From contig NZ_QLAE01000002.1 of the NCBI RefSeq assembly GCF_005876855.1, positions 62,001-126,000 of the forward strand: a DNA stretch of 64,000 nucleotides, read 5' to 3'. Origin of the DNA: Stutzerimonas nosocomialis (GTDB lineage Bacteria; Pseudomonadota; Gammaproteobacteria; Pseudomonadales; Pseudomonadaceae). A program made the position numbers and the translations under genes. Positions 9,306 through 21,030 of this stretch are shown here, piece after piece. Every line of letters begins with the position of its first letter. Position 1 is the first letter of the stretch. The notes beneath the pieces are model-generated. The model was given only the letters and a program-made list of their open reading frames with translations, was not told the DNA's origin and searched no databases.

Positions 9306-9390
9306 GATTATTTGCTCCGGCCGATTCTTCCGCTGCGCCACGCTGGCCAAGATGGTTCCCAACGAACGCATCGACATGAGGGCCGTCCCG

Positions 9391-10341
9391 TTGGAAAAGA
9401 CCTTGCACCAGCCGCTGGGCGGTAACGAAATGCCACGTTTCGGCGGCATCGCCAGCATGATGCGCCTGCCGGTGGTGGACAGCCCCGCCGGGCTGGACGT
9501 CGCCTTCGTCGGCATTCCGCTGGACATTGGCACCTCGCTGCGCGCCGGGACGCGCTTCGGCCCACGGGAGATCCGCGCCCAGTCGGTGATGATCCGTCCC
9601 TACAACATGGCCACCGGCGCCGCGCCGTTCGATTCGCTGAGCGTGGCGGACATCGGCGACGTGGCGATCAACACCTTCAACCTGCTCGACACCGTGCGGA
9701 TCATCGAACAGGCCTACGACCGCATCCTCGCGCACGGCGTGATCCCGCTGACCCTGGGCGGCGACCACACCCTGACGCTGCCGATCCTGCGGGCGATGAA
9801 GAAGAAGTACGGCAAGGTCGGGCTGGTCCACGTCGACGCCCATGCCGACGTCAACGATCACATGTTCGGCGAGAAGATCGCCCACGGCACCACCTTCCGC
9901 CGCGCGGTGGAGGAAGAGCTGCTCGACTGCGACCGCGTGGTGCAGATCGGCCTGCGGGCCCAGGGCTACACCGCCGAGGACTTCAACTGGTGCCGCACCC
10001 AGGGCTTTCGCGTGGTGCAGGCCGAGGAATGCTGGCACCGGTCCCTCGAACCGCTGATGGCCGAGGTGCGCGAGCGGGTCGGGGGCGGGCCGGTGTACCT
10101 GTCCTTCGACATCGACGGCATCGACCCGGCCTGGGCGCCGGGCACCGGCACCCCGGAAGTCGGCGGCCTGACCACGATCCAGGCGCTGGAAATCATCCGT
10201 GGCTGTCAGGGCCTGGAACTGGTCGGCGGCGACCTGGTGGAGGTCTCGCCGCCCTACGACACCACTGGCAACACCGCGCTGCTCGGCGCCAACCTGCTCT
10301 ACGAAATGCTCTGCGTGATGCCCGGCGTGACCCGGCGCTGA
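9391..10341 (+). CDS. gbuA: Guanidinobutyrase (ureohydrolase/agmatinase family)
   Basis: GbuA hydrolyses 4-guanidinobutyrate to 4-aminobutyrate (GABA) and urea. The binuclear manganese motifs are intact: GGDHT, DAHADVND and SFDIDGIDP. The sequence from HQPLGGNEMPRFGGIA to SPPYDTTGNT closely resembles P. aeruginosa GbuA as I recall it, more than agmatinases. I chose TTG 9391: it has a GAGG ribosome site 9 bp upstream and gives MEKTLHQPLGG (316 residues), aligning with the known N-terminus. ATG at 9352 or 9376 would add 13 or 5 residues. It is the first gene of an operon that also holds a ketoarginine-decarboxylase-like enzyme, which supports guanidinobutyrate rather than agmatine. Guanidinopropionase (GpuA) is the main alternative. 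Confidence 0.85.
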   Translation: MEKTLHQPLGGNEMPRFGGIASMMRLPVVDSPAGLDVAFVGIPLDIGTSLRAGTRFGPREIRAQSVMIRPYNMATGAAPFDSLSVADIGDVAINTFNLLDTVRIIEQAYDRILAHGVIPLTLGGDHTLTLPILRAMKKKYGKVGLVHVDAHADVNDHMFGEKIAHGTTFRRAVEEELLDCDRVVQIGLRAQGYTAEDFNWCRTQGFRVVQAEECWHRSLEPLMAEVRERVGGGPVYLSFDIDGIDPAWAPGTGTPEVGGLTTIQALEIIRGCQGLELVGGDLVEVSPPYDTTGNTALLGANLLYEMLCVMPGVTRR

Positions 10342-10398
10342 CACGGACACCCATGGCCGCCCGGCGCGGCCGGACCCTGACCGGTAGCAGGATGCCCC

Positions 10399-11241
10399 AT
10401 GAAGCTTGAGATCTTTCGCACCCTCTGGGGCAATCGCAGCCCCTGGCCACAGGTCTTCGACGAACTGCGCGGCGCGGGCTTCGACGGCATCGAGGCGCGC
10501 CTGCCCGAGGCGGATGCCGAGCGCAGCCGTTTCGCCCGCATCCTGCGCGAGCAGGCGGTGCCCTACATCTGCGTGCTGTTCACCTCGACCCCGGTGCTGC
10601 CGCGCCAGTCCGACACCCCGGCGATGCACCTGGCCGACCTCGCGCGCAAGCTCGCGCTGGCCGGCGAACTCGAGCCGCGTTTCATCAACCTGCTGGCCGG
10701 CAACGACCGCTGGAGCCTGGCCGAGCAGGTCGACTTCTTCGGCGCCGCGCTGGAGCTCGGCGAGCGCGCCGGCCTGCTGCTGAGCTTCGAGACCCACCGC
10801 GCCCGTTCGCTCTACAGCCCCTGGGTCACCCTGGAGCTGATCCGCCAGCTGCCGGCGCTGCGCTTCACCAGCGACATCAGCCACTGGGTGGTGACCTGCG
10901 AGCGGCTGCTGGACGATCCGGCCGATGACCTGACGCCCTTCGTCGAACGCGTGCACCACATCCAGGCCCGGGTCGGCTACGACCAGGGGCCGCAGGTGCC
11001 CCATCCTGGTGCGCCCGAATACGCCGATGCGCTGGCCTTCCACCAGCGCCACTGGGAAAGCATCTGGAACAGCCAGCAACGGCGCGGCTTCGCCGGCACC
11101 ACCCTGACCCCCGAGTTCGGCCCGGACGGCTATTTGCATCATCTGCCCTTTACCGACGTGCCGGTCGCCGACCTCTGGCAGCTGAACCAGTGGATGGCGC
11201 GCACCGAACGGCACCACTTCCATCGATTTCTCGGCCACTAG
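10399..11241 (+). CDS. TIM-barrel sugar-phosphate isomerase/epimerase-like protein
   Basis: The 280-residue product belongs to the xylose-isomerase-like/AP-endonuclease-2 TIM-barrel superfamily. Candidate metal ligands are Glu131 (SFETHR), Asp159 and His162 (TSDISHW), His187 (RVHHIQAR) and Glu239 (TPEFGPDGY), in the order typical of this fold. Sugars are the commonest substrates of the family, but no sugar gene is near. In this operon it probably isomerises a hydroxylated or keto intermediate of a guanidino compound; that is inference. An AGCAGGA ribosome site precedes ATG 10399. The gene lies 57 bp after gbuA and 15 bp before the oxygenase gene. Confidence 0.8.
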   Translation: MKLEIFRTLWGNRSPWPQVFDELRGAGFDGIEARLPEADAERSRFARILREQAVPYICVLFTSTPVLPRQSDTPAMHLADLARKLALAGELEPRFINLLAGNDRWSLAEQVDFFGAALELGERAGLLLSFETHRARSLYSPWVTLELIRQLPALRFTSDISHWVVTCERLLDDPADDLTPFVERVHHIQARVGYDQGPQVPHPGAPEYADALAFHQRHWESIWNSQQRRGFAGTTLTPEFGPDGYLHHLPFTDVPVADLWQLNQWMARTERHHFHRFLGH

Positions 11242-11256
11242 CAAGGAGCGATTCCC

Positions 11257-12297
11257 ATGAGCGGCAGCGCCAAGCACTTCACCCGCATCCCGGTGGTCGA
11301 CATCGGCGACCTGTTCAGCCCCGAGCTGGCTCGTCGCCAGGCGGTGGCCGACCAGCTCGGCCAGGCGGCGCGCGAGGTGGGCTTTCTCTACATCACCGGG
11401 CATGGCATCGAGCCGGCGCTGATCGACGGCCTGCACCGCGCCGCCGAGGATTTCTTCGCCCAGCCCTTCGAGACCAAGATGCGCCACTACATCGGCGCCT
11501 CGGAAAGCCACAAGGGCTACGTGCCCGAGGGCGAGGAGGTCTATTCGAAGGGCAAGCCCGACCACAAGGAAGCCTTCGACATCGGTTTCGAAGTGCCCGC
11601 CGACAACCCGCTGGTGCTCGCCGGCACGCCCCTCCTGGGCCCCAATCGCTGGCCCGAGCTGCCGGGCTTCAGGGAGGCGGCGCAGGCCTATTACGCCGCG
11701 GTGTTCGGCCTGGGTCGCCAGCTGTTTCGCGGCTTCGCCCTGGCCCTGGGGCTGGCCGAGGATGCCTTCGACGGCGTGGCCAACTTCCCGCCGTCCAAGC
11801 TGCGGCTGATCCACTACCCCTACGATGGCGAGGCGCAGGACGCCCCCGGCATCGGCGCCCATACCGACTACGAGTGCTTCACCATCCTGCTGGCCGACCG
11901 GCCGGGGCTGGAGGTGATGAACGATCTGGGCGAATGGATCGACGCGCCGCCGGTGGAGGGCGCCTTCGTCGTCAACATCGGCGACATGCTCGAGGTGATG
12001 ACCGCCGGCACCTTCGTCGCCACCGCCCACCGGGTGCGCAAGGTGGCCGAGGAGCGCTACTCCTTCCCGCTGTTCTACGCCTGCGACTACCACACCCAGA
12101 TCCGCCCGCTGCCGCAGTTCGCCGAGGCCGGCACCCGCTACGAGCCGCTGAGCATCGGCGAGCACATGTGGAGCCAGGCGCTGCAGACCTATCAATACCT
12201 GAAAAGACGCGTCGAGGCCGGGGACCTGCACTTGCCCGAACGCGCGCGCAAACCCTCGAGCTTCGGCCACCTCAAGCACCAGCCGAGCGCGACCTGA
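11257..12297 (+). CDS. Fe(II)/2-oxoglutarate-dependent oxygenase, isopenicillin-N-synthase-like
   Basis: This 346-residue non-heme iron oxygenase has a DIOX_N domain (about 8-125) and the 2OG-Fe(II) core. The iron ligands are His202, Asp204 (GAHTDYECF) and His258 (ATAHRV). Arg267 and Ser269 (RYSF) would bind 2-oxoglutarate. [19 protein letters not shown] near 88 recalls the corresponding region of bacterial ethylene-forming enzyme, which acts on arginine. That is a weak resemblance, noted because the operon handles guanidino compounds. The likely role is hydroxylation of the imported substrate. A strong AAGGAG site precedes the ATG. The oxygenase is not part of the known arginine transaminase pathway. 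Confidence 0.86.
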
Positions 12298-12338
12298 TTC
12301 GCTGCCGACGACCTTTCAAGCCTTTGGAGAACACAACG

Positions 12339-13139
12339 ATGAAAAGCCTGAAGACTCTCTCGCTCGGTGGCCTGGGCGCGCTGTTGCTGGGCACCGCCCT
12401 CGGCGCGGTCGCCGCCGATGCCCCCAAGACCGTGACCCGTGGCGAGCTCAAGGTGGGCATGGAGATCGCCTACCCGCCGTTCGAGTATTACGAGGGCGAC
12501 AAGGTGGTCGGTTTCGACCCCGAAGTGTCCGCCGAACTCGCCCAGCGCATGGGCCTGAACGCGACCTTCTCGGACACGCGCTTCCCCAACCTGATCCTGG
12601 GGCTCAACGCCAACCGCTTCGACACCATCATTTCCGGCATGTACATCCTGCCCGAACGCCTCCAGCAGGCCGACGCCATCCCCTATGCCAAGACCGGCGC
12701 GGCGATCATGGTTCGCGCCGACGCCGAGCGTAAGCCCGCGACCGAGCAGGAGCTGTGCGGCCTGGCCGTCGGGCTGCAGCAGGGCACCTCCTGGATCAAG
12801 AAGCTCAACGAGCTGTCGGCCGGCTACTGCGCCGAAGAGGGCAAGGGCGCGATCACCGTCAACGAGTACCCGACCAGCTCGGAAACCTCCCAGGCGTTGC
12901 TGTCCGGGCACATCCAGGCGCACCTGGAAATCGCCAGCGCCTCCCAGATGATGGCCGAGAAGTCCCGTGGCCGCATCGTCGTCACCACGCCGGCGTCGAT
13001 CTACCCCGAAACCCTGGGCATCTACGTGAAAAAGGGCAACACCCAGCTGCTCGATGCGCTTAAGGCCGCGCTCGACGACTTCAAGCAGAGCGGCGACTAC
13101 CAGCAGCTGCTGGCCAAGTACGGTCTGGAAGAAGCCTGA
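12339..13139 (+). CDS. Amino-acid ABC transporter periplasmic binding protein
   Basis: The 266-residue secreted protein has a Sec signal peptide (hydrophobic core LSLGGLGALLLGTAL, cleavage near Ala25-Ala26) followed by an SBP_bac_3 domain. Typical family segments are GELKVGMEIAYPPFEYYEGDKVVGFD and LLAKYGLEEA (given only as landmarks: VGMEIAYPPFEYY and AKYGLEEA). This class binds polar amino acids, including arginine, ornithine and opines. It lies 41 bp after the oxygenase and just before the fused permease-ATPase, and should deliver the operon's substrate. Acidic residues in the predicted pocket cannot be assigned from sequence alone. Confidence 0.9.
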   Translation: MKSLKTLSLGGLGALLLGTALGAVAADAPKTVTRGELKVGMEIAYPPFEYYEGDKVVGFDPEVSAELAQRMGLNATFSDTRFPNLILGLNANRFDTIISGMYILPERLQQADAIPYAKTGAAIMVRADAERKPATEQELCGLAVGLQQGTSWIKKLNELSAGYCAEEGKGAITVNEYPTSSETSQALLSGHIQAHLEIASASQMMAEKSRGRIVVTTPASIYPETLGIYVKKGNTQLLDALKAALDDFKQSGDYQQLLAKYGLEEA

Positions 13140-13147
13140 TGCCCTTG

Positions 13148-13174
13148 CGCGCGGCGCGCCGCCTGCGCCGCGCG
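13148..13174 (+). terminator. Strong hairpin between binding-protein and permease genes (attenuator)
   Basis: CGCGCGGCGC (13148-13157) and GCGCCGCGCG (13165-13174) form a perfect 10-bp stem with a 7-base loop and no U tract. It probably lowers downstream expression or protects the upstream mRNA, so that binding protein exceeds membrane component. Confidence 0.6.
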
Positions 13175-13222
13175 ACGATCCACCGGGGCCGCAGGAGCGC
13201 CGCCCCAGGCCAGAGGTGACGC

Positions 13223-14743
13223 ATGCCATTCGAATGGACGTATTTCTTCTCGATGTTCTCCATGCCGGCCTTCTGGAAGGCCAGCTGGACGGTGGTCAAG
13301 CTGAGCACCCTGGCCTGGGTGATCGGCATGCTGATCGGCTTCGGCCTGGCCAGCGCCAAGCAGTCGTTGCACGCCTGGGTGCGGGTGCCAGCCTCGCTCT
13401 ATGTCTGGTTCTTCCGCAGCGTGCCGCTGCTGGTGCTGCTGATCTTCGTCTACAACCTGCCGCAGCTGTTTCCCGGCAGCGGCCCGATCCTCTCGCAGCC
13501 GTTCTACGCCGGCCTGTTCGCGCTGGTGCTCACCGAGGCGGCCTACATGGCCGAGATTCACCGCGGCGGGCTGCTCTCGGTCGCCAAGGGCCAGCGCGAG
13601 GCGGCGCGGGCGCTGGGCATCCGCGGGCTGGGCACGCAGCGGCTGATCGTGGTGCCCCAGGCGTTCCGCATCGCCCTGCCGACGCTGACCAACGAATACG
13701 TCACCATCGTCAAGCTCACCTCCCTGGTGTCGGTGATCTCGCTGACCGAGCTGCTGCTGGTGGGCCAGCGCCTCTACGCGCAGAACTTCCTGGTGCTCGA
13801 GACCCTCGGCGCGGTGGCGCTCTACTACGTGCTGATCGTGACCCTCTTCGGCTGGCTGCTGCAGTACCTCGAACGGCACCTGGACCTGAGCCGGCGCAAG
13901 CCGGAGACCCTCGAAGGCGCCCGCCTGCAGACCCTGCGCGACAGCCTGCCGGCGGCGGTCGCGACGGCGGCGCAGGCCCCGCGTCCGGGAATGCCCGACG
14001 CACTGCGCCTGAACGGCGTGCACAAGCGCTACGGCAACCACCACGTGCTCAAGGGCATCGACCTGCGGGTGCGGCCGGGCGAGGTGATCTCGATCATCGG
14101 CCCTTCCGGCTCGGGCAAGACATCGCTGATCCGCACGGTCAACGGCCTGGAGCGCATCGACGACGGCGAGATCGTGCTCTTCGGCGAGGACTACATCCGC
14201 GCCGGCGACGCCCCCGACAGCCGCCGCCTGCGCGCCGGGGTGCGGCGCATCGGCATGGTGTTCCAGAGCTTCAACCTGTTCCCCCACCGCACCATCCTCG
14301 ACAACGTGCTGCTGGCGCCGCGCTATCATCGCCTGGGCGACACCGCGAGCCTGCGCCAGCAGGCCCTGGCGCTGCTCGACAAGGTCGGCCTGCTGGCCCA
14401 TGCCGAGAAATACCCGCACCAGCTCTCCGGCGGCCAGCAACAGCGCGTGGCCATCGCCCGCGCGCTGGCGATGAAACCGGACATCATGCTGTTCGACGAA
14501 CCCACCTCGGCGCTCGACCCGGAGCTGGTCGGCGACGTGCTCGCCGTGATCCGCGACCTGGCCGCCGAGGGCATGACCATGCTCATCGTCACCCACGAGA
14601 TGGACTTCGCGCTGTCGATCTCCGACCGCGTGGTGTTCATGGAAGACGGCCACATCGGCCTGGACGCCTCGCCCGAGGCGATTCGCAGCCACGGCAGCGA
14701 ACGCGTGCGGCGCTTCATCGGCCTGGAGACGGACCCGACATGA
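13223..14743 (+). CDS. Amino-acid ABC transporter, permease fused to ATPase
   Basis: One 506-residue polypeptide carries both transport components. Residues 1-235 are a HisM/GlnP-type permease with about five membrane spans and the EAA-like loop AARALGIRGLGTQRLIVVPQA (core: EAARALGIRG). A linker of about 30 residues leads to an ATP-binding domain (about 265-506) with Walker A GPSGSGKT, signature LSGGQQQRVAIARAL, Walker B IMLFDEPTSALD and the switch His in VTHEMDF. The reading frame is unbroken, so the fusion is real in this sequence. Only one permease is present, suggesting a homodimer. Its stop overlaps the aldolase start (ATGA). With the preceding binding protein it forms a complete polar amino-acid-type importer. 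Confidence 0.92.
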   Translation: MPFEWTYFFSMFSMPAFWKASWTVVKLSTLAWVIGMLIGFGLASAKQSLHAWVRVPASLYVWFFRSVPLLVLLIFVYNLPQLFPGSGPILSQPFYAGLFALVLTEAAYMAEIHRGGLLSVAKGQREAARALGIRGLGTQRLIVVPQAFRIALPTLTNEYVTIVKLTSLVSVISLTELLLVGQRLYAQNFLVLETLGAVALYYVLIVTLFGWLLQYLERHLDLSRRKPETLEGARLQTLRDSLPAAVATAAQAPRPGMPDALRLNGVHKRYGNHHVLKGIDLRVRPGEVISIIGPSGSGKTSLIRTVNGLERIDDGEIVLFGEDYIRAGDAPDSRRLRAGVRRIGMVFQSFNLFPHRTILDNVLLAPRYHRLGDTASLRQQALALLDKVGLLAHAEKYPHQLSGGQQQRVAIARALAMKPDIMLFDEPTSALDPELVGDVLAVIRDLAAEGMTMLIVTHEMDFALSISDRVVFMEDGHIGLDASPEAIRSHGSERVRRFIGLETDPT

Positions 14744-15462
14744 ATGATGACATCGCCACCCTGCGCCGGGACCTGGCCGCGGCCTATCGGCTGGCCGCCC
14801 TGTTCGGCTGGGACGACACCCTCTACACCCACTTTTCCGTACGCCTGCCGGGCGAGGAGCCGCGCTTTCTGATCAACCCGTTCGGCCTGCTGTTCGAAGA
14901 GGTGCGCGCCAGCGACCTGATCGTGGTGGACATGCACGGCAAGGTGGTCGAAGGCCGCGCCGACTACAACGTCGCCGGCTTCACCATCCACAGCGCGGTG
15001 CACATGGCCCGCGAGGACGCGCACTGCGTGATCCACACCCACACCCTGGCCGGCATGGCGGTGGCCGCGCAGGACGACGGCCTGCTGCAGCTGAACCAGA
15101 TCAGCACCGAGTTCTACCGCCGGATCGGCTACCACCCCTACGAGGGCGTGGCGCTGGACCTGGAGGAGCGGCGCCGCATCCAGGCCTCGCTGGGCGACCA
15201 CATCGCCCTGATCCTGCGGCACCACGGCCTGCTCAGCGTGGGCGCCAGCGTCGCCGATGCCTTCTACGTGATGTTCTACCTCAACCGCGCCTGCGAGATT
15301 CAGCTGGCGACCACCTCGGGCGGCCGCCACTACAGCCAGATCCCGGCGCACCTGAGCCGCCACGCCTGCGAACAGCTGCAGGGCGCCGAATGGCAGCGCC
15401 AGCTGATCTGGCAGGCCTGGCTGCGCAAGCTCGACCGCCTCGATCCCGGCTACAAGGACTGA
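14740..15462 (+). CDS. Class II aldolase/adducin-family protein
   Basis: This 240-residue zinc-dependent aldolase-type protein has the family's metal histidines in HCVIHTHT (about 99-106) and RHHGLLSVG (about 150-158), and a probable catalytic Glu in ISTEFYRR (about 123). Family members include fuculose-phosphate aldolase, ribulose-phosphate epimerase and several non-sugar decarboxylases or aldolases. In this operon a retro-aldol split of a hydroxylated keto acid is plausible but unproved. The start codon overlaps the transporter stop, and the ThDP enzyme starts 5 bp after its stop, so translation is probably coupled. Confidence 0.86.
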   Translation: MNDDIATLRRDLAAAYRLAALFGWDDTLYTHFSVRLPGEEPRFLINPFGLLFEEVRASDLIVVDMHGKVVEGRADYNVAGFTIHSAVHMAREDAHCVIHTHTLAGMAVAAQDDGLLQLNQISTEFYRRIGYHPYEGVALDLEERRRIQASLGDHIALILRHHGLLSVGASVADAFYVMFYLNRACEIQLATTSGGRHYSQIPAHLSRHACEQLQGAEWQRQLIWQAWLRKLDRLDPGYKD

Positions 15463-15467
15463 CCCAC

Positions 15468-17069
15468 ATGACCACCTGCGGCGAGTTTCTGATCCGCCAG
15501 CTCCAGGCCTGGGGCGTCGACACCCTGTTCGGCATCCCCGGCGTGCATACCGTCGAGCTCTACCGGGGCCTGGCCGGCAGTGGCATTCGCCACGTCACGC
15601 CGCGCCACGAGCAGGGCGCGGGATTCATGGCCGACGGCTATGCGCGCGTCAGCGGCAAGCCCGGCGTATGCCTGATCATCACCGGTCCGGGGATGACCAA
15701 CATCCTCACCGCCATGGCCCAGGCCTACGCCGACTCGATCCCGATGCTGGTGATCTCCTCGGTCAACGAGCGCGACCGGCTGGGGCAGGGCAGGGGTTAC
15801 CTGCACGAGCTGCCCGACCAGCGCGCGCTCACCGCCGGGGTGAGCGCCTTCAGCCATACGCTGATGAGCGTCGAGGAACTGCCCGAGGTGCTGGCGCGGG
15901 CTTTCGCGGTGTTCTCGGGCGCCCGGCCGCGGCCGGTGCACATCGAGCTGCCGCTGGATCTGATCACCGCGCCGGCCGATCACCTCGCCCTGCAGCCGCG
16001 GGCCCGGGCCTCGCGCCCGGTGGCCGATGCGGCGCTGATCCGCGCGGCGGCCGAACGCCTGCGCGCCGCCCGGGCGCCGTTGCTGCTGCTCGGCGGCGGT
16101 TGCGTCGAGGCGCCGGCCGAAGCCCGTGCGCTCGCCGAGGCGCTGGATGCGCCAACCGCGCTCACCATCAACGCCAAGGGCCTGCTGCCGGCCGGCCATC
16201 CACTGCTGCTGGGCAGCAACCAGTCCCTGGTGCCGGTGCGCGAGCTGGCGCGTGAGGCCGACGTGGTGCTGGCGATCGGTACCGAGCTGGGCGAGACCGA
16301 TTACGACGTGGTCTTCGACGGCGGCTTCGCCCTCGGCGGCGAGCTGATCCGCATCGACATCGATGCCGCGCAGCTGGACCGCAACTTCACCCCGGCGCTG
16401 GCGATCCAGGCCGATGCGCGCCAGGCGATGGAACGGCTGCTGGCCGAGCTGCCGCCGTCCGTCTTCGATGCCCAGGGTCCGGGCGCTCGGCGCGCCGCCG
16501 CGGTTCGCGCGGCCCTGGCCGAGGGCTTTGCCGGCTGGGCGCACTACCGGCAGCTGTTCGACACCCTGCAGCAGGCGCTGCCCGACGCACGCTTGGTCGG
16601 CGACTCGACCCAGACCGTCTACAGCGGCAACCACCTGGTCGACACCCTGGCCCCGCGCCGCTGGTTCAACTCATCGACCGGCTACGGCACCCTCGGCTAC
16701 GGCCTGCCGGCCGCCATCGGGGCGAAACTCGCCGACCCGTCCAGCCCGGTGATCTGCCTGATCGGCGACGGCGGCCTGCAGTTCAGCCTGCCGGAACTGG
16801 CCAGCGCGGTGGAGGCGGGGGTCGGCATCGTCGTGCTGCTGTGGAACAACCAGGGCTACGGCGAGATAAAGCGCTACATGCAGCGCCGCCAGATCACCCC
16901 GCTCGGCGTCGACATCCACACCCCCGATTTCATCGCCATCGCCCGTGGCTTCGGCTGCCAGGCCGAGCGCGCCCGCGACCACGCCCACCTGGCCGAACTG
17001 CTGCGTCAGGCGCCTGGCGACCGGCCACTGCTGGTCGAGCTCATGGAGGGGCCGCCGTTCCACCCATGA
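15468..17069 (+). CDS. aruI: ThDP-dependent decarboxylase, 5-guanidino-2-oxopentanoate decarboxylase-like
   Basis: This 533-residue enzyme belongs to the acetolactate synthase/benzoylformate decarboxylase superfamily. It has the catalytic Glu in HEQGAGFMADGYAR (about 45-58), a central FAD/Rossmann-like domain, and the ThDP-magnesium motif starting GDGGLQFSLPEL and ending WNNQGYGE. AruI decarboxylates 2-ketoarginine to 4-guanidinobutanal in the arginine transaminase pathway; P. aeruginosa has a paralogue next to gbuA. Presence in one operon with gbuA supports this reaction, since oxidation of the aldehyde gives the GbuA substrate. The aminotransferase (AruH) and aldehyde dehydrogenase (KauB) are not in the window. 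I placed the start at ATG 15468, 5 bp after the aldolase stop. The exact substrate could be a modified ketoarginine. Confidence 0.78.
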   Translation: MTTCGEFLIRQLQAWGVDTLFGIPGVHTVELYRGLAGSGIRHVTPRHEQGAGFMADGYARVSGKPGVCLIITGPGMTNILTAMAQAYADSIPMLVISSVNERDRLGQGRGYLHELPDQRALTAGVSAFSHTLMSVEELPEVLARAFAVFSGARPRPVHIELPLDLITAPADHLALQPRARASRPVADAALIRAAAERLRAARAPLLLLGGGCVEAPAEARALAEALDAPTALTINAKGLLPAGHPLLLGSNQSLVPVRELAREADVVLAIGTELGETDYDVVFDGGFALGGELIRIDIDAAQLDRNFTPALAIQADARQAMERLLAELPPSVFDAQGPGARRAAAVRAALAEGFAGWAHYRQLFDTLQQALPDARLVGDSTQTVYSGNHLVDTLAPRRWFNSSTGYGTLGYGLPAAIGAKLADPSSPVICLIGDGGLQFSLPELASAVEAGVGIVVLLWNNQGYGEIKRYMQRRQITPLGVDIHTPDFIAIARGFGCQAERARDHAHLAELLRQAPGDRPLLVELMEGPPFHP

Positions 17070-17277: not shown

Positions 17278-18654
17278 TCAGACGGTGTGCAGGTACCAGT
17301 TGTACTCGAGGTCGGAGATCGAGTGCTCGAACTCGGCCAGCTCGCTCTCCTTGCAGGCGACGAAGATGTCGATGTAGTCGGGGCTGATGTAGCGGGCCAT
17401 GACTTCGCTGTCGTCCAGCTGGCGCAGCGCATCGCGCAGGTTGGTCGGCAGGCTCGGCTCGACCTGCTCGTAGGAGTTGCCCTCGATCGGGTCGTCCGGC
17501 TCGATCTGGTTGGTCAGGCCGTGATGGATGCCGGCCAGGACGCCGGCCAGAAGCAGGTAGGGGTTGGCGTCGGCGCCGGCCACCCGGTGTTCGATGCGCA
17601 CCGCGTCGGGGCTGTCGGTGGGGATGCGCAGGGCCACGGTGCGGTTGTCCAGACCCCAGCTCGGGGTGTTCGGCACGTAGAACTGGGCGCCGAAGCGGCG
17701 GTACGAATTCACGTTCGGGCAAAGGAAGGCCATCGAGGCCGACATGGTCTCCTGGAGCCCGCCGATAGCATGGCGCAGGCGGGCGTTTTCCAGCGGCTCC
17801 TCGCCGGCGAAAATATTGTTTCCGTCCTTGTCGAGGATGGAAATGTGCACGTGCAGCCCATTGCCGGCCTGGCCGGGGTAGGGCTTGGCCATGAAGGTGG
17901 AGTCCATCTCGTGGTCGTAGGCGATGTTCTTGATCAGCCGCTTGAGCAGGACCGCGTAGTCGCAGGCCTTGATCGGGTCGGCGACGTGATGGAGGTTGAC
18001 CTCGAACTGCGCCGGCGCGCTTTCCTTGACGATGGCATCGGCCGGGATGCCCTGCTCCTTGGCGCCTTCGAGCACGTCCTGCAGGCAGTCGACGTACTCG
18101 TCCAGGTCGTCGATCAGGTAGACCTGGGTCGACACCGGGCGCTTGCCCGAGATCGGCGAGCGCGGCGGCTGCGGACGGCCGTTCACGTTCTCCTGGTCGA
18201 TCAGGTAGAACTCCAGTTCGAATGCGGCGCAGATGGTCAGGCCCAGTTCGTCGAAGCGCGCCACGACCTGGCGCAGCACCTCGCGCGGGTCGGCGAAGAA
18301 CGGCGAGCCGTCGCGCTCGTGCATGGTCATCAGCAGCTGGGCGGTGGGGCGCTTCTGCCAGGGTTCCTTGGACAGGGTGTTGGGGATCGGGAAGCAGGTC
18401 CGGTCCGCATCGCCCATGTCCAGGCCGAGCCCGGTGCTTTCCACGGTGATGCCGTTGATGTCGAGTGCGAACAGCGAGGCGGGGAGGTTGATGCCCTTTT
18501 CATACACCTTGTGCAGGCTGGCGCGCTCGATGCGCTTGCCCCGGACGACCCCGTTCATGTCGGCGATCAACAGATCGACGTAGAGGATTTCCGGATGTTC
18601 CTTGAGAAATGCGTTCGCTTCGTTGAGCTGAACGGCACGCGGCTGGGAAGCCAT
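17278..18654 (-). CDS. spuI: Gamma-glutamylpolyamine synthetase (glutamine synthetase family)
   Basis: SpuI/PauA-type enzymes use ATP to join glutamate to putrescine or another polyamine, the first step of the gamma-glutamylation route. The 458-residue protein has a short GS beta-grasp N-domain (about 25-120) and the GS catalytic domain with AFELEFYLI, GLHVHISI and RVAGADANPYLLLAG. Length fits the family; true GlnA is usually about 470 residues and differs at these motifs. It faces away from spuA across a 234-bp promoter region, exactly as spuI does in P. aeruginosa. The cytoplasmic product acts on substrate brought in by SpuDEFGH. Confidence 0.92.
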   Translation of the reverse strand: MASQPRAVQLNEANAFLKEHPEILYVDLLIADMNGVVRGKRIERASLHKVYEKGINLPASLFALDINGITVESTGLGLDMGDADRTCFPIPNTLSKEPWQKRPTAQLLMTMHERDGSPFFADPREVLRQVVARFDELGLTICAAFELEFYLIDQENVNGRPQPPRSPISGKRPVSTQVYLIDDLDEYVDCLQDVLEGAKEQGIPADAIVKESAPAQFEVNLHHVADPIKACDYAVLLKRLIKNIAYDHEMDSTFMAKPYPGQAGNGLHVHISILDKDGNNIFAGEEPLENARLRHAIGGLQETMSASMAFLCPNVNSYRRFGAQFYVPNTPSWGLDNRTVALRIPTDSPDAVRIEHRVAGADANPYLLLAGVLAGIHHGLTNQIEPDDPIEGNSYEQVEPSLPTNLRDALRQLDDSEVMARYISPDYIDIFVACKESELAEFEHSISDLEYNWYLHTV

Positions 18655-18821
18655 GATGAAGCACCTTAATTGTTAAAAATTTCAATCATCAAACGTCCTG
18701 CCCGGAGTCAATCGAAAAGCCAGGCCAGTGTCAATAGTAGCGCCGGGAGGCTCCGTGCGGCCTGCGCAGGCCCGTTTGACGGCCTGCGGTCGGCGCCCGT
18801 GTTCAGGGAATCGGCAAGCTA

Positions 18822-18850
18822 TTGTCTAAAAAAATGAACAAGGCTACTCT
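18822..18850 (+). promoter_or_regulatory. spuA promoter region with a PuuR-like box
   Basis: TTGTCT (18822-18827) and TACTCT (18845-18850) have a 17-bp spacer, a moderate sigma-70 match. Inside it, CTAAAAAAATGAACA (18826-18840) matches 11 of 15 positions of the E. coli PuuR box as I recall it (AAAATATAATGAACA), including the last eight bases. Pseudomonas PauR is a PuuR-like polyamine repressor, so this is a plausible operator. On the spuI side, two TTGAC[AT] hexamers (minus strand) occur about 24 bp apart. Confidence 0.42.
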
Positions 18851-18888
18851 CGATCAAGACCCCCACGACCAGACAGATGTGTGTCCTT

Positions 18889-19629
18889 ATGTCTCGCTTG
18901 CCGCTGATCGGCGTATGCGCCTGCACCAAACAGATCGGTCACCATCCATTCCACATCGCTGGCGACAAGTACCTGCGGGCGGCCTCCATCGCCGGGCTGC
19001 CACTGGTGATTCCGGCGCTCGGCGAGGCGCTCGACCAGGCCACCCTGCTCGAGCAGTTCGACGGCCTGCTGTTCACCGGTTCGCCGTCCAACGTCGAGCC
19101 TCATCATTATAGTGGGCCGGCGAGCGAGCCCGGCACGCACCACGATCCCCAGCGCGATGCCACCACCCTGCCGCTGATCCGCGCGGCGATCGACGCCGGC
19201 ATCCCGGTGTTCGGCATCTGCCGCGGCTTCCAGGAAATGAACGTTGCCTTTGGTGGCAGCCTGCACCAGAAGGTTCACGAAGTCGGCGCTTATGGCGATC
19301 ACCGCGAGCGCCCGGACGATCCGGTGGAGGTGCAGTACGGCCTGAGCCATCCGCTGCACATCCAGCCGGGAGGCCTGCTGGCCGGGCTGCTGCCCGCGCG
19401 GATCGAGGTCAACTCCGTGCACGGCCAGGGGGTCGAACGCCTGGGCCAGGGCCTGCGCATCGAGGCGCTGGCACCGGACGGGCTGATCGAGGCCTTCTCC
19501 GTCGAGGGCGCGCGTTTCGCCCTGGGCGTCCAGTGGCACCCCGAATGGAAGGTGCATGAAAACCCGCATTACCTGGCGCTGTTCCAGGCCTTCGCCGAGG
19601 CCTGCCGGGAGCACGCGAGCCATCGCTGA
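18889..19629 (+). CDS. spuA: Gamma-glutamyl-GABA hydrolase (class I glutamine amidotransferase family)
   Basis: SpuA/PuuD hydrolyses gamma-glutamyl-GABA to glutamate and GABA in the cytoplasm. The 246-residue protein shows the cysteine-nucleophile elbow GICRGFQEMN (about 108-117) and the His-Glu pair in VQWHPEW (about 209-215). I prefer ATG 18889 (MSRLPLIGVCACTKQ), which matches family N-termini, over ATG 18877, which adds four residues; neither has a clear ribosome site. It is the first gene of the spu operon, followed 42 bp later by a second glutamylpolyamine synthetase. Confidence 0.9.
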   Translation: MSRLPLIGVCACTKQIGHHPFHIAGDKYLRAASIAGLPLVIPALGEALDQATLLEQFDGLLFTGSPSNVEPHHYSGPASEPGTHHDPQRDATTLPLIRAAIDAGIPVFGICRGFQEMNVAFGGSLHQKVHEVGAYGDHRERPDDPVEVQYGLSHPLHIQPGGLLAGLLPARIEVNSVHGQGVERLGQGLRIEALAPDGLIEAFSVEGARFALGVQWHPEWKVHENPHYLALFQAFAEACREHASHR

Positions 19630-19671
19630 CCGTACCCCTCGCGGCGGTCGTTCCATCAACCTGAGGTCGTT

Positions 19672-21030
19672 ATGACTACCAAGCTCGACCAGCTCACGGG
19701 CTGGCTGAAAGAACGCAAGATCACCGAAGTCGAATGCCTGATCAGCGACCTGACCGGCATCGCGCGGGGCAAGATTTCCCCGACCAACAAGTTCCTCGAC
19801 GAAAAGGGCATGCGCCTGCCCGAGAGCGTGCTGCTGCAGACCGTCACCGGCGACTACGTCGAGGACGATATCTACTACGAGCTGCTCGACCCGGCCGACA
19901 TCGACATGTTCTGCCGGCCCGACCCCAACGCCGTGTTCCTCGTGCCCTGGGCCATCGAGCCCACCGCCCAGGTGATCCACGACACCTACGACAAGATGGG
20001 CAACCCCATCGAACTGTCGCCGCGCAACATCCTCAAGAAAGTGCTGAAGATGTACGCCGACAAGGGCTGGCAGCCCATCGTCGCGCCGGAGATGGAGTTC
20101 TACCTGACCAAGCGCTGCGAGGACCCGGACCTGCCGTTCCAGCCGCCGGTCGGCCGCTCGGGCCGGCAGGAAACCGGGCGCCAGTCGTTCTCCATCGATG
20201 CGGCCAACGAGTTCGATCCGCTGTTCGAGGACATGTACGACTGGTGCGAGGCCCAGGGCCTGGACCTCGATACGCTGATCCACGAGGAAGGCACCGCGCA
20301 GATGGAAATCAATTTCCGTCACGGCGAGGCGCTGCACCTGGCCGACCAGATCCTGGTGTTCAAGCGGACCATGCGCGAGGCCGCGCTCAAGCACAACGTC
20401 GCCGCCACCTTCATGGCCAAGCCGATGACCGGCGAGCCGGGCAGCGCCATGCACCTGCACCAGAGCGTCATCGACCTGGAAACCGGGCGCAACATCTTCT
20501 CCAGCCCCGACGGCTCCATGAGCCAGCTGTTCCTGCACCACGTCGGCGGCCTGCAGAAGTACATCCCCGAGCTGCTGCCGATGTTCGCGCCCAACGTCAA
20601 TTCGTTCCGCCGTTTCCTGCCCGACACCTCGGCGCCGGTGAACGTCGAATGGGGCGAGGAGAACCGCACCGTCGGCCTGCGCGTGCCCGATTCCGATCCG
20701 CAGAACCGCCGCGTCGAGAACCGCCTGGCCGGTGCCGATGCCAACCCTTACCTGGCGATCGCCGCGAGCCTGCTGTGCGGCTACATCGGCATGGTCGAGG
20801 AGCTGACCCCCAGCCAGCCGGTCAAGGGCCGCGGTTACGAGCGCCGCAACCTGCGCCTGCCGTTGACCCTGGAGACGGCGCTGGAGCGCATGGAAAGCTG
20901 TCGCCAGCTGGAAAAGTACCTGAGCCCCAAGTTCATCACCGGCTACGTCGCGGTCAAGCGCGCCGAGCAGGAGAACTACCACCGGGTGATCAGCTCCTGG
21001 GAGCGCGAGTTCCTGATGCTATCGGTCTGA
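19672..21030 (+). CDS. spuB: Gamma-glutamylpolyamine synthetase (glutamine synthetase family)
   Basis: The 452-residue protein is a second GS-family ligase, distinct in sequence from spuI. Landmarks are PEMEFYLT (about 142), AMHLHQSV (about 260) and RLAGADANPYLAIA (about 352). It glutamylates a polyamine or monoamine with ATP; the P. aeruginosa paralogues divide putrescine, cadaverine, diaminopropane and spermidine among themselves, and the preference here is unknown. The position directly after spuA matches P. aeruginosa spuB. A repeat-rich gap of 136 bp separates it from spuC. Confidence 0.9.
   Translation: MTTKLDQLTGWLKERKITEVECLISDLTGIARGKISPTNKFLDEKGMRLPESVLLQTVTGDYVEDDIYYELLDPADIDMFCRPDPNAVFLVPWAIEPTAQVIHDTYDKMGNPIELSPRNILKKVLKMYADKGWQPIVAPEMEFYLTKRCEDPDLPFQPPVGRSGRQETGRQSFSIDAANEFDPLFEDMYDWCEAQGLDLDTLIHEEGTAQMEINFRHGEALHLADQILVFKRTMREAALKHNVAATFMAKPMTGEPGSAMHLHQSVIDLETGRNIFSSPDGSMSQLFLHHVGGLQKYIPELLPMFAPNVNSFRRFLPDTSAPVNVEWGEENRTVGLRVPDSDPQNRRVENRLAGADANPYLAIAASLLCGYIGMVEELTPSQPVKGRGYERRNLRLPLTLETALERMESCRQLEKYLSPKFITGYVAVKRAEQENYHRVISSWEREFLMLSV

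Follow-up and report, generated by a model that had tools for sequence, protein, structure and literature searches.

Seven genes headed by a guanidinobutyrase gene in Stutzerimonas nosocomialis: a possible pathway for oxidative N-demethylation of guanidino acids

In Stutzerimonas nosocomialis, the guanidinobutyrase gene gbuA is followed by genes for a TIM-barrel protein, a 2-oxoglutarate (2OG)/Fe(II) oxygenase, the two parts of an ATP-binding cassette (ABC) importer, a class II aldolase and a thiamine pyrophosphate (TPP)-dependent 2-keto-acid decarboxylase. The operon lies in a 64,000-nucleotide stretch (contig NZ_QLAE01000002.1, positions 62,001 to 126,000; hereafter, the window) of a 4.76 Mb genome in 86 contigs. 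What could an oxygenase and a protein with the fold of a sugar epimerase contribute next to the enzyme that releases urea from 4-guanidinobutyrate? Comparison with related loci shows that the operon consists of two modules, namely, the gbu (4-guanidinobutyrate) genes and the genes for the TIM-barrel protein, the 2OG oxygenase and the ABC importer. We judge the chances to be evenly balanced that the second of these is an oxidative N-demethylation module that has been joined to the gbu genes and delivers its demethylated product to GbuA.

Two separable modules

A search for relatives of the TIM-barrel protein gave 445 places, of which the 80 best were retained; the counts given here refer to these closest homologs, mostly from Pseudomonas. 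ORFs (open reading frames) outside the window were called by a custom script, with some genes missed or merged. Assemblies are repeated in three cases (L039 is the same as L053, L040 as L095, and L208 as L131), and such duplicates are included in the residue counts (85 to 88 rows) and in the tree, whose 101 rows comprise 98 different ones; alignment rows with tblastn coverage below 0.8 (binding protein) or 0.7 (another set) were dropped.

The complete module, comprising the TIM-barrel protein, oxygenase, binding protein and permease-ATPase, is present in 77 of the 80 loci; in the other three, only an oxygenase fragment is found (L113), the locus stops at the contig end (L096) or the permease-ATPase is split into two matches (L125). 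The same 80 loci contain gbuA in 34 cases, the TPP enzyme in 34, a LysR gene in 33 and the aldolase (>250 bits) in 18. The gbuA gene can precede or follow the module, in several arrangements (L053, L054, L057, L070, L072 and, in Salinicola, L090), and is also linked to it in two loci outside the 80 (L038 and L154). Conversely, 19 gbuA loci, of those in 22 other gbuA-positive Pseudomonadaceae genomes, encode LysR (18), a sodium:solute symporter (16), the TPP enzyme (11) and the aldolase (2, L197 and L200), and none of the 19 contains the TIM-barrel or oxygenase genes. Because the aldolase and TPP genes are found in gbuA loci without the oxygenase and the TIM-barrel protein, they belong with gbuA, the aldolase, with its 18 of 80 and 2 of 19 occurrences, as an optional gbu gene. 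Inheritance of the seven genes as a single pathway can be rejected given that each of the two modules occurs alone. An earlier note on this DNA held that its scheme would fall if the middle genes were missing from other gbuA-aruI loci and grouped with sugar-pathway proteins; they are indeed missing from all 19 gbuA loci, but their relatives reside in guanidine rather than sugar operons. The identical seven genes in identical order recur in L052 and L053, so this arrangement is not due to chance; L052, from Stutzerimonas azotifigens 115A1, is the closest named locus (TIM-barrel protein 96% identical).

Among the Pseudomonadaceae gbuA loci (L187-L205), a TPP 2-keto-acid decarboxylase gene (11 of 19) and symporter genes are often found beside gbuA. 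In two distant operons, L038 (12703-13644) and L154 (3991-4923), a gene of the D-2-hydroxyacid dehydrogenase family follows the aldolase gene, in the place of the TPP gene.

All 80 genomes with the closest TIM-barrel loci possess gbuA, 34 within the locus and 46 elsewhere, the latter with matches at E 1e-100 or better (30/30 and 17/17, where the second set contains L095, which has gbuA within its locus). An even sampling of the Pseudomonadaceae (59 genomes, that of the window included) gives gbuA in 23 and a TIM-barrel relative in nine. Seven of these nine (window, G758, G837, G839, G471, G475 and G536) are of the window type, that is, with the TIM-barrel protein, the oxygenase and this binding protein, and all seven are gbuA-positive; the remaining two, G833 and G847, have types B and C (see below) and are gbuA-negative. 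The Fisher test gives p 0.0007 for 7/7 versus 16/52 with gbuA and p 0.0018 for 6/6 with the window excluded.

An oxygenase of the MgdH-like clade

The oxygenase contains conserved H202, D204, H258 and R267. A tree built from 38 oxygenases unites 27 rows of the window type, three of type B and two MgdH-like enzymes in one clade with 100/99 support; the remaining six 2OG enzymes, of which two are encoded in the S. nosocomialis genome, fall outside it. The two MgdH-like rows, L042 and L217, to which the window oxygenase is 57% and 59% identical, respectively, were so labelled by operon layout and not via a published MgdH sequence: both operons contain UAAP1/2-type genes, a urea/guanidine-carboxylase-type enzyme, a 2OG oxygenase and an MgdL-like gene (carboxylase and UAAP calls by NCBIfam for L042 and by tblastn for L217), and in both a Guanidine-II riboswitch precedes the carboxylase gene. 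We take the UAAP genes to be CgdA/B and the NCBIfam 'urea carboxylase' to be guanidine carboxylase, a naming based in part on PMC12508155. The same layout is reported in PMC12508155 for Vreelandella boliviensis, in which MgdH is the hydroxylase of methylguanidine and MgdL the lyase that cleaves N-(hydroxymethyl)guanidine.

Glu93 and Glu206 are common to the window, MgdH-like and type B oxygenases and are absent from the five other 2OG enzymes used for this check (L043 and L045-L048), except for Glu206 in L043. By contrast, Lys181 is confined to the window type, with Gln in its place in the MgdH-like and type B rows, which hints at a substrate other than methylguanidine. A role as an ethylene-forming enzyme was also considered: psEFE structures match the oxygenase over part of the chain, at a low score of about 70 bits, and 9ovh, a structure annotated as ethylene/succinate-forming enzyme, reaches 235 bits.

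The TIM-barrel protein as a proposed counterpart of MgdL

The AlphaFold2 model of the TIM-barrel protein (predicted local distance difference test score 82.3) has 3-epimerases as its fold matches; its sequence shows no significant match to solved structures, the best being a capsule export protein at E 0.054. Glu131, Asp159, His187 and Glu239, conserved in at least 100 of the 101 rows, sit at the ends of strands 5-8 and presumably are the metal tetrad of the D-tagatose 3-epimerase superfamily. Arg104 and Asn102 are confined to the window type and, together with Lys181 of the oxygenase, are as expected if both enzymes recognize a carboxylate.

Thirteen distant rows fall into two groups. Type B (3; L041, L156 and L206) combines the TIM-barrel protein with an NMT1-family (Pfam) binding protein and a 2OG oxygenase. 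In type C (10), a membrane protein of the Pfam FA_desaturase family adjoins or lies near the TIM-barrel gene in nine rows, the tenth (L150) being a 4-kb contig. Some of these loci additionally encode a metallo-beta-lactamase (MBL)-fold protein, an EamA transporter, a creatininase-family protein, an NMT1-type importer or carboxylase genes. Guanidine riboswitches, one or more per locus, are present in four of the 11 type B/C loci searched (L148, L149, L151 and L153), and in three of these (L148, L151 and L153) a Guanidine-II aptamer is located immediately 5' of the desaturase-like gene. L044 has the order frmA-fghA-TIM-desaturase, where frmA and fghA, genes of formaldehyde oxidation, pass NCBIfam models.

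MgdL and the TIM-barrel protein appear to be exchanged between such operons. Homologs of MgdL are found in six of the 369 genomes of the class and are accompanied by a 2OG oxygenase in L042 and L217 and by a desaturase-like protein in L220, which lies 3' of a Guanidine-I riboswitch, and L221. The TIM-barrel protein has the same two kinds of partner, the 2OG oxygenase in the window type and in L041, L156 and L206, and the desaturase-like protein in L044, L148, L149, L151, L152, L153, L157, L158 and L207. The nearest case of a swap is desaturase-MBL-TIM-EamA in L152 versus desaturase-MBL-MgdL-EamA in L220. No locus among those examined encodes both proteins, and MgdL has no match in the S. nosocomialis genome (E 1e-8), in the window or above 60 bits in the 80 TIM-barrel loci. 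It is mainly because of this exchange across two kinds of oxygenase that hemiaminal lyase is a more fitting description of the TIM-barrel protein than sugar isomerase; the isomerase-like role given to it in the earlier note fits the fold but not the gene context, with relatives beside oxygenases in guanidine operons, and has lost ground.

At a little below even confidence, we propose that this family is an unrecognized class of hemiaminal (N-hydroxyalkyl-guanidine) lyases, unrelated to MgdL, which serves soluble 2OG or membrane desaturase-like hydroxylases interchangeably and, in Pseudomonas, would form a pathway dedicated to the methylated guanidino acids that arise from methylarginines.

The FA_desaturase-family proteins encoded directly 3' of a Guanidine-II riboswitch (L148:10296-11356, L151:2710-3774 and L153:10421-11456) or a Guanidine-I riboswitch (L220:5947-7160) are candidate membrane di-iron hydroxylases for alkylguanidines. 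An MBL-fold protein is retained in desaturase/TIM or desaturase/MgdL operons (L149:11075-11860, L151:3797-4579, L152:8502-9284, L220:5154-5936 and L221:8560-9366). A protein of about 130 residues is encoded beside type B/C TIM-barrel genes (L041:8293-8712, L206:10571-10987, L207:8333-8701 and L156:10510-10887) and upstream of the L038 operon (L038:2998-3375); it has no NCBIfam match and, in Pfam, only a sub-threshold match of the L206 copy to a regulator.

Ligand of the importer

In the binding protein, Arg107, Tyr102 and Glu197-Ile198 are present in 85 of 85 rows and Glu42 in 84. The protein retains the Arg that presumably binds the carboxylate of the ligand and has Glu-Ile where the aligned amino-acid binders have the Asp that we take to contact the alpha-ammonium group. 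Hence the ligand would be a guanidino acid whose alpha-amino group is absent or altered.

A predicted pathway and its alternatives

The following pathway can be envisaged for the operon. The importer would bring in a guanidino acid lacking the normal alpha-amino group. If this substrate is a 2-keto acid, the TPP enzyme could decarboxylate it, a step suggested by the family membership of this protein, and an aldehyde dehydrogenase encoded elsewhere would oxidize the product. The oxygenase, given its position in the MgdH-like clade, would then hydroxylate a carbon bonded to a guanidino nitrogen, in the most likely case that of an N-methyl group, yielding a stable N-hydroxymethyl hemiaminal. In view of the TIM/MgdL gene exchange, the Glu-Asp-His-Glu metal site of the TIM-barrel protein would cleave the hemiaminal, releasing formaldehyde and leaving the demethylated guanidino acid; this protein would thus be a non-homologous equivalent of MgdL. 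Finally, GbuA would convert 4-guanidinobutyrate to gamma-aminobutyric acid (GABA) and urea, the established reaction of this enzyme.

Our best guess for the substrate is N-mono- or dimethyl-4-guanidinobutyrate and the matching 2-keto acids. Such methylated 4-guanidinobutyrates and 2-keto acids are mammalian products of methylarginines. In rats given labelled asymmetric dimethylarginine (ADMA), dimethylguanidinobutyric acid and its keto precursor are among the main urinary products, according to PMC6769906.

Several observations weigh against the demethylation pathway. The comparisons establish the protein families, and the hydroxylation and splitting chemistry is predicted from gene context and residues; likewise, Arg104 and Lys181 are placed in the pockets by reference to strand ends, and Glu197, adjoining Ile198, could still bind an alpha-ammonium group. 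The aldolase has no part in the scheme. Formaldehyde-oxidation genes adjoin the TIM-barrel gene in a single locus, L044, and the 80 window-type loci yield three weak frmA matches (30-42% identity), 0.5 to 7.7 kb from the TIM-barrel gene. With regard to the guanidine context, seven of the 11 type B/C loci searched have no guanidine riboswitch (L041, L044, L152, L156, L157, L158 and L207), the TIM-barrel and desaturase-like genes are on opposite strands in L149 and L151, and two of the six MgdL loci show neither kind of oxygenase, namely, L218 (importer, UAAP1 and creatininase-type genes) and L219 (no recognizable context). As for the link to gbuA, the gene is not adjacent to the module in 46 of the 80 loci, and the linkage is explained by just two changes on the TIM-barrel tree. 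Moreover, gbuA is common in these Pseudomonas genera, being found also in five of the six g293-g295 genomes of the family sample that lack the TIM-barrel protein, so that the 80/80 co-occurrence is partly confounded, and the Fisher result is confounded by kinship.

Among the alternatives, the one that survives best, although we consider it rather unlikely, is that the substrate is 4-guanidinobutyrate or a homolog, in which the oxygenase hydroxylates the chain carbon that adjoins the guanidino group, and the TIM-barrel protein splits the hemiaminal to give free guanidine and a semialdehyde, with GbuA as a parallel route. Similar chemistry on arginine and homoarginine is attributed to the ethylene-forming enzyme and to plant homoarginine-6-hydroxylases in PMC12508155 and PMC11345546, and relatives occur in guanidine-degrading operons that are partly controlled by riboswitches. 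However, Rfam gives no guanidine riboswitch anywhere in the window, on which ground riboswitch control of the operon was rejected, nor is there one in six other window-type loci searched (L038, L154, L090, L054, L057 and L121). Furthermore, the L042 carboxylase, UAAP1 and UAAP2 have no match in the window, to which this search was directed, and a parallel GbuA route leaves the presence of gbuA in all 80 genomes unexplained.

It is less probable still that the substrate is an N-methylated arginine (N-monomethylarginine, ADMA or symmetric dimethylarginine), which the module would convert to arginine for the transaminase route via the TPP enzyme and GbuA. This possibility agrees with the amino-acid type of the importer, whose binding protein finds its best NCBIfam models, all below the cut-off, among Lys/Arg/Orn and cystine binders, as well as with the 2-ketoarginine-family decarboxylase that ends the operon. 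In addition, G471, G475, G839 (L208, which duplicates L131) and L113 have an extra TPP enzyme of the same family, encoded divergently to the oxygenase-TIM module and at a distance from gbuA. The loss of the alpha-ammonium Asp position in all 85 rows speaks against it, and arginine as the product would not need gbuA in particular.

Under an improbable third alternative, the modules adjoin only for shared regulation or uptake, and the oxygenase-TIM pair handles a non-guanidino N-methyl acid, as the 46 of 80 modules located away from gbuA would allow. Such a function is at odds with the shared Glu93 and Glu206 of the oxygenases, described above, and with the location of distant TIM-barrel relatives in guanidine operons. 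The scheme of the earlier note, in which the arginine chain is hydroxylated and isomerized, followed by aldol cleavage and decarboxylation, is the least probable of all: every family that it names is present, and import and oxygenation of a guanidino compound feeding GbuA are favored by context (the MgdH-like clade; gbuA in 80/80 genomes), but aldol trimming is not, with the close aldolase next to the oxygenase-TIM pair in just 18 of the 80 loci, also present without the pair in L197 and L200, and unmatched in type B and C TIM-barrel loci.

Returning to N-demethylation, the operon can be compared with several known systems. It resembles MgdH/MgdL of Vreelandella boliviensis, as described in PMC12508155, in having an oxygenase of the MgdH-like clade, a second enzyme proposed to split an N-hydroxymethyl hemiaminal and an ABC importer; it differs in that a TIM-barrel protein stands in the place of MgdL, the oxygenase pocket has Lys181, no guanidine carboxylase gene or guanidine riboswitch is matched in the window, and the product is proposed to pass to GbuA. 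With the stand-alone gbu loci of Pseudomonadaceae, the operon shares GbuA (80-89% identical) and, in 11 of the 19, the TPP enzyme (71-82%), whereas all 19 lack the oxygenase and TIM-barrel genes, and 18 have beside gbuA a LysR gene that is unmatched in the window. The arginine transaminase (AruH/AruI/GbuA) pathway has in common with it the 2-ketoarginine decarboxylase family and guanidinobutyrase; the operon lacks the aminotransferase and aldehyde dehydrogenase and adds the oxygenase, TIM-barrel protein and importer. From the D-tagatose 3-epimerase/xylose-isomerase-like superfamily, whose fold and Glu-Asp-His-Glu set it shares, the TIM-barrel protein is set apart by having no significant sequence match among solved structures and by relatives that adjoin oxygenases in guanidine operons.

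We infer that the operon is a variant of MgdH-type demethylation with an unrecognized lyase family. No open-access description was found of a TIM-barrel partner of an MgdH-type oxygenase, of a desaturase-like protein in guanidine operons or of bacterial guanidinobutyrate demethylation. Enzymes that accelerate hemiaminal decay are rare: according to PMC12508155, the MgdL authors are aware of a single similar activity, peptidyl-hydroxyglycine lyase. If the proposal is correct, a second, unrelated lyase family in many Pseudomonas genomes would show stable guanidino hemiaminals to be a recurring metabolic problem, and bacteria would be able to process the guanidino acids that stem from methylarginines and are measured in human medicine. 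The TIM-barrel family, to which the libraries searched assign no function, would acquire one.

Gene assignments and surroundings

All seven ORFs are in frame on one strand (9391-17069), with intergenic spacings, from gbuA on, of 57, 15, 41, 83, -4 and 5 bp; strand, gaps and named families had been given correctly in the earlier note, as the Pfam and NCBIfam matches attest (Table 1).

Table 1. Genes and intergenic element of the operon, in window coordinates
Feature	Position	Strand	Basis
gbuA, 4-guanidinobutyrase (arginase family)	9391..10341	+	PF00491 Arginase; PDB 3NIO match
TIM-barrel protein, D-tagatose 3-epimerase fold; proposed N-(hydroxyalkyl)guanidine (hemiaminal) lyase, MgdL analogue	10399..11241	+	PF01261 AP_endonuc_2
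2OG/Fe(II) oxygenase, MgdH-like clade; proposed hydroxylase at carbon attached to guanidino nitrogen	11257..12297	+	PF14226 and PF03171
Family 3 periplasmic binding protein of the importer	12339..13139	+	PF00497
83-bp gap with hairpin between binding protein and permease genes	13140..13222	+	folding computation
Fused permease-ATPase, amino-acid-type ABC importer	13223..14743	+	PF00528 and PF00005 in one ORF
Class II aldolase/adducin family protein, PRK07044 subfamily; optional gbu-associated gene	14740..15462	+	PF00596; NF005451, 327 bits (cut-off 207)
TPP-dependent 2-keto-acid decarboxylase, AruI/PRK07524 family	15468..17069	+	TPP_enzyme N/M/C; NF005712

The start codon of gbuA at 9391 is TTG, with GAGG upstream, and aligns with the N-terminus of the guanidinobutyrase in PDB 3NIO; a possible alternative start is the ATG at 9376. 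GbuA scores 654.7 bits against 3NIO and 332 against the next best match, 3-guanidinopropionase, and has one match in its own genome at E 1e-120; hydrolysis of 4-guanidinobutyrate to GABA and urea is predicted from this family assignment. The TPP enzyme reaches 862 bits with the NCBIfam model NF005712, '5-guanidino-2-oxopentanoate decarboxylase' (cut-off 500), and is the sole protein of its genome above the cut-off; because up to three proteins per genome pass this model, it does not distinguish the true AruI. The hairpin pointed out in the earlier note exists but was rejected as a special element, since the folding energy of 13137-13222 (-42.4 kcal/mol) is unexceptional when set against dinucleotide shuffles (z -0.21).

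In L053 the operon is flanked by a LysR gene, and in both L052 and L053 by purine/cytosine-type permease and MBL-fold genes; none of these has a match in the window. The L039/L053 operon is adjoined by N-carbamoylputrescine amidase and agmatine deiminase genes (L039:13989-16296). Beside the operon in the window (17278-21030), there is a polyamine-type cluster that consists of a glutamine-synthetase-like gene on the minus strand, a peptidase C26 resembling gamma-glutamyl-GABA hydrolase and a second glutamine-synthetase-like gene.

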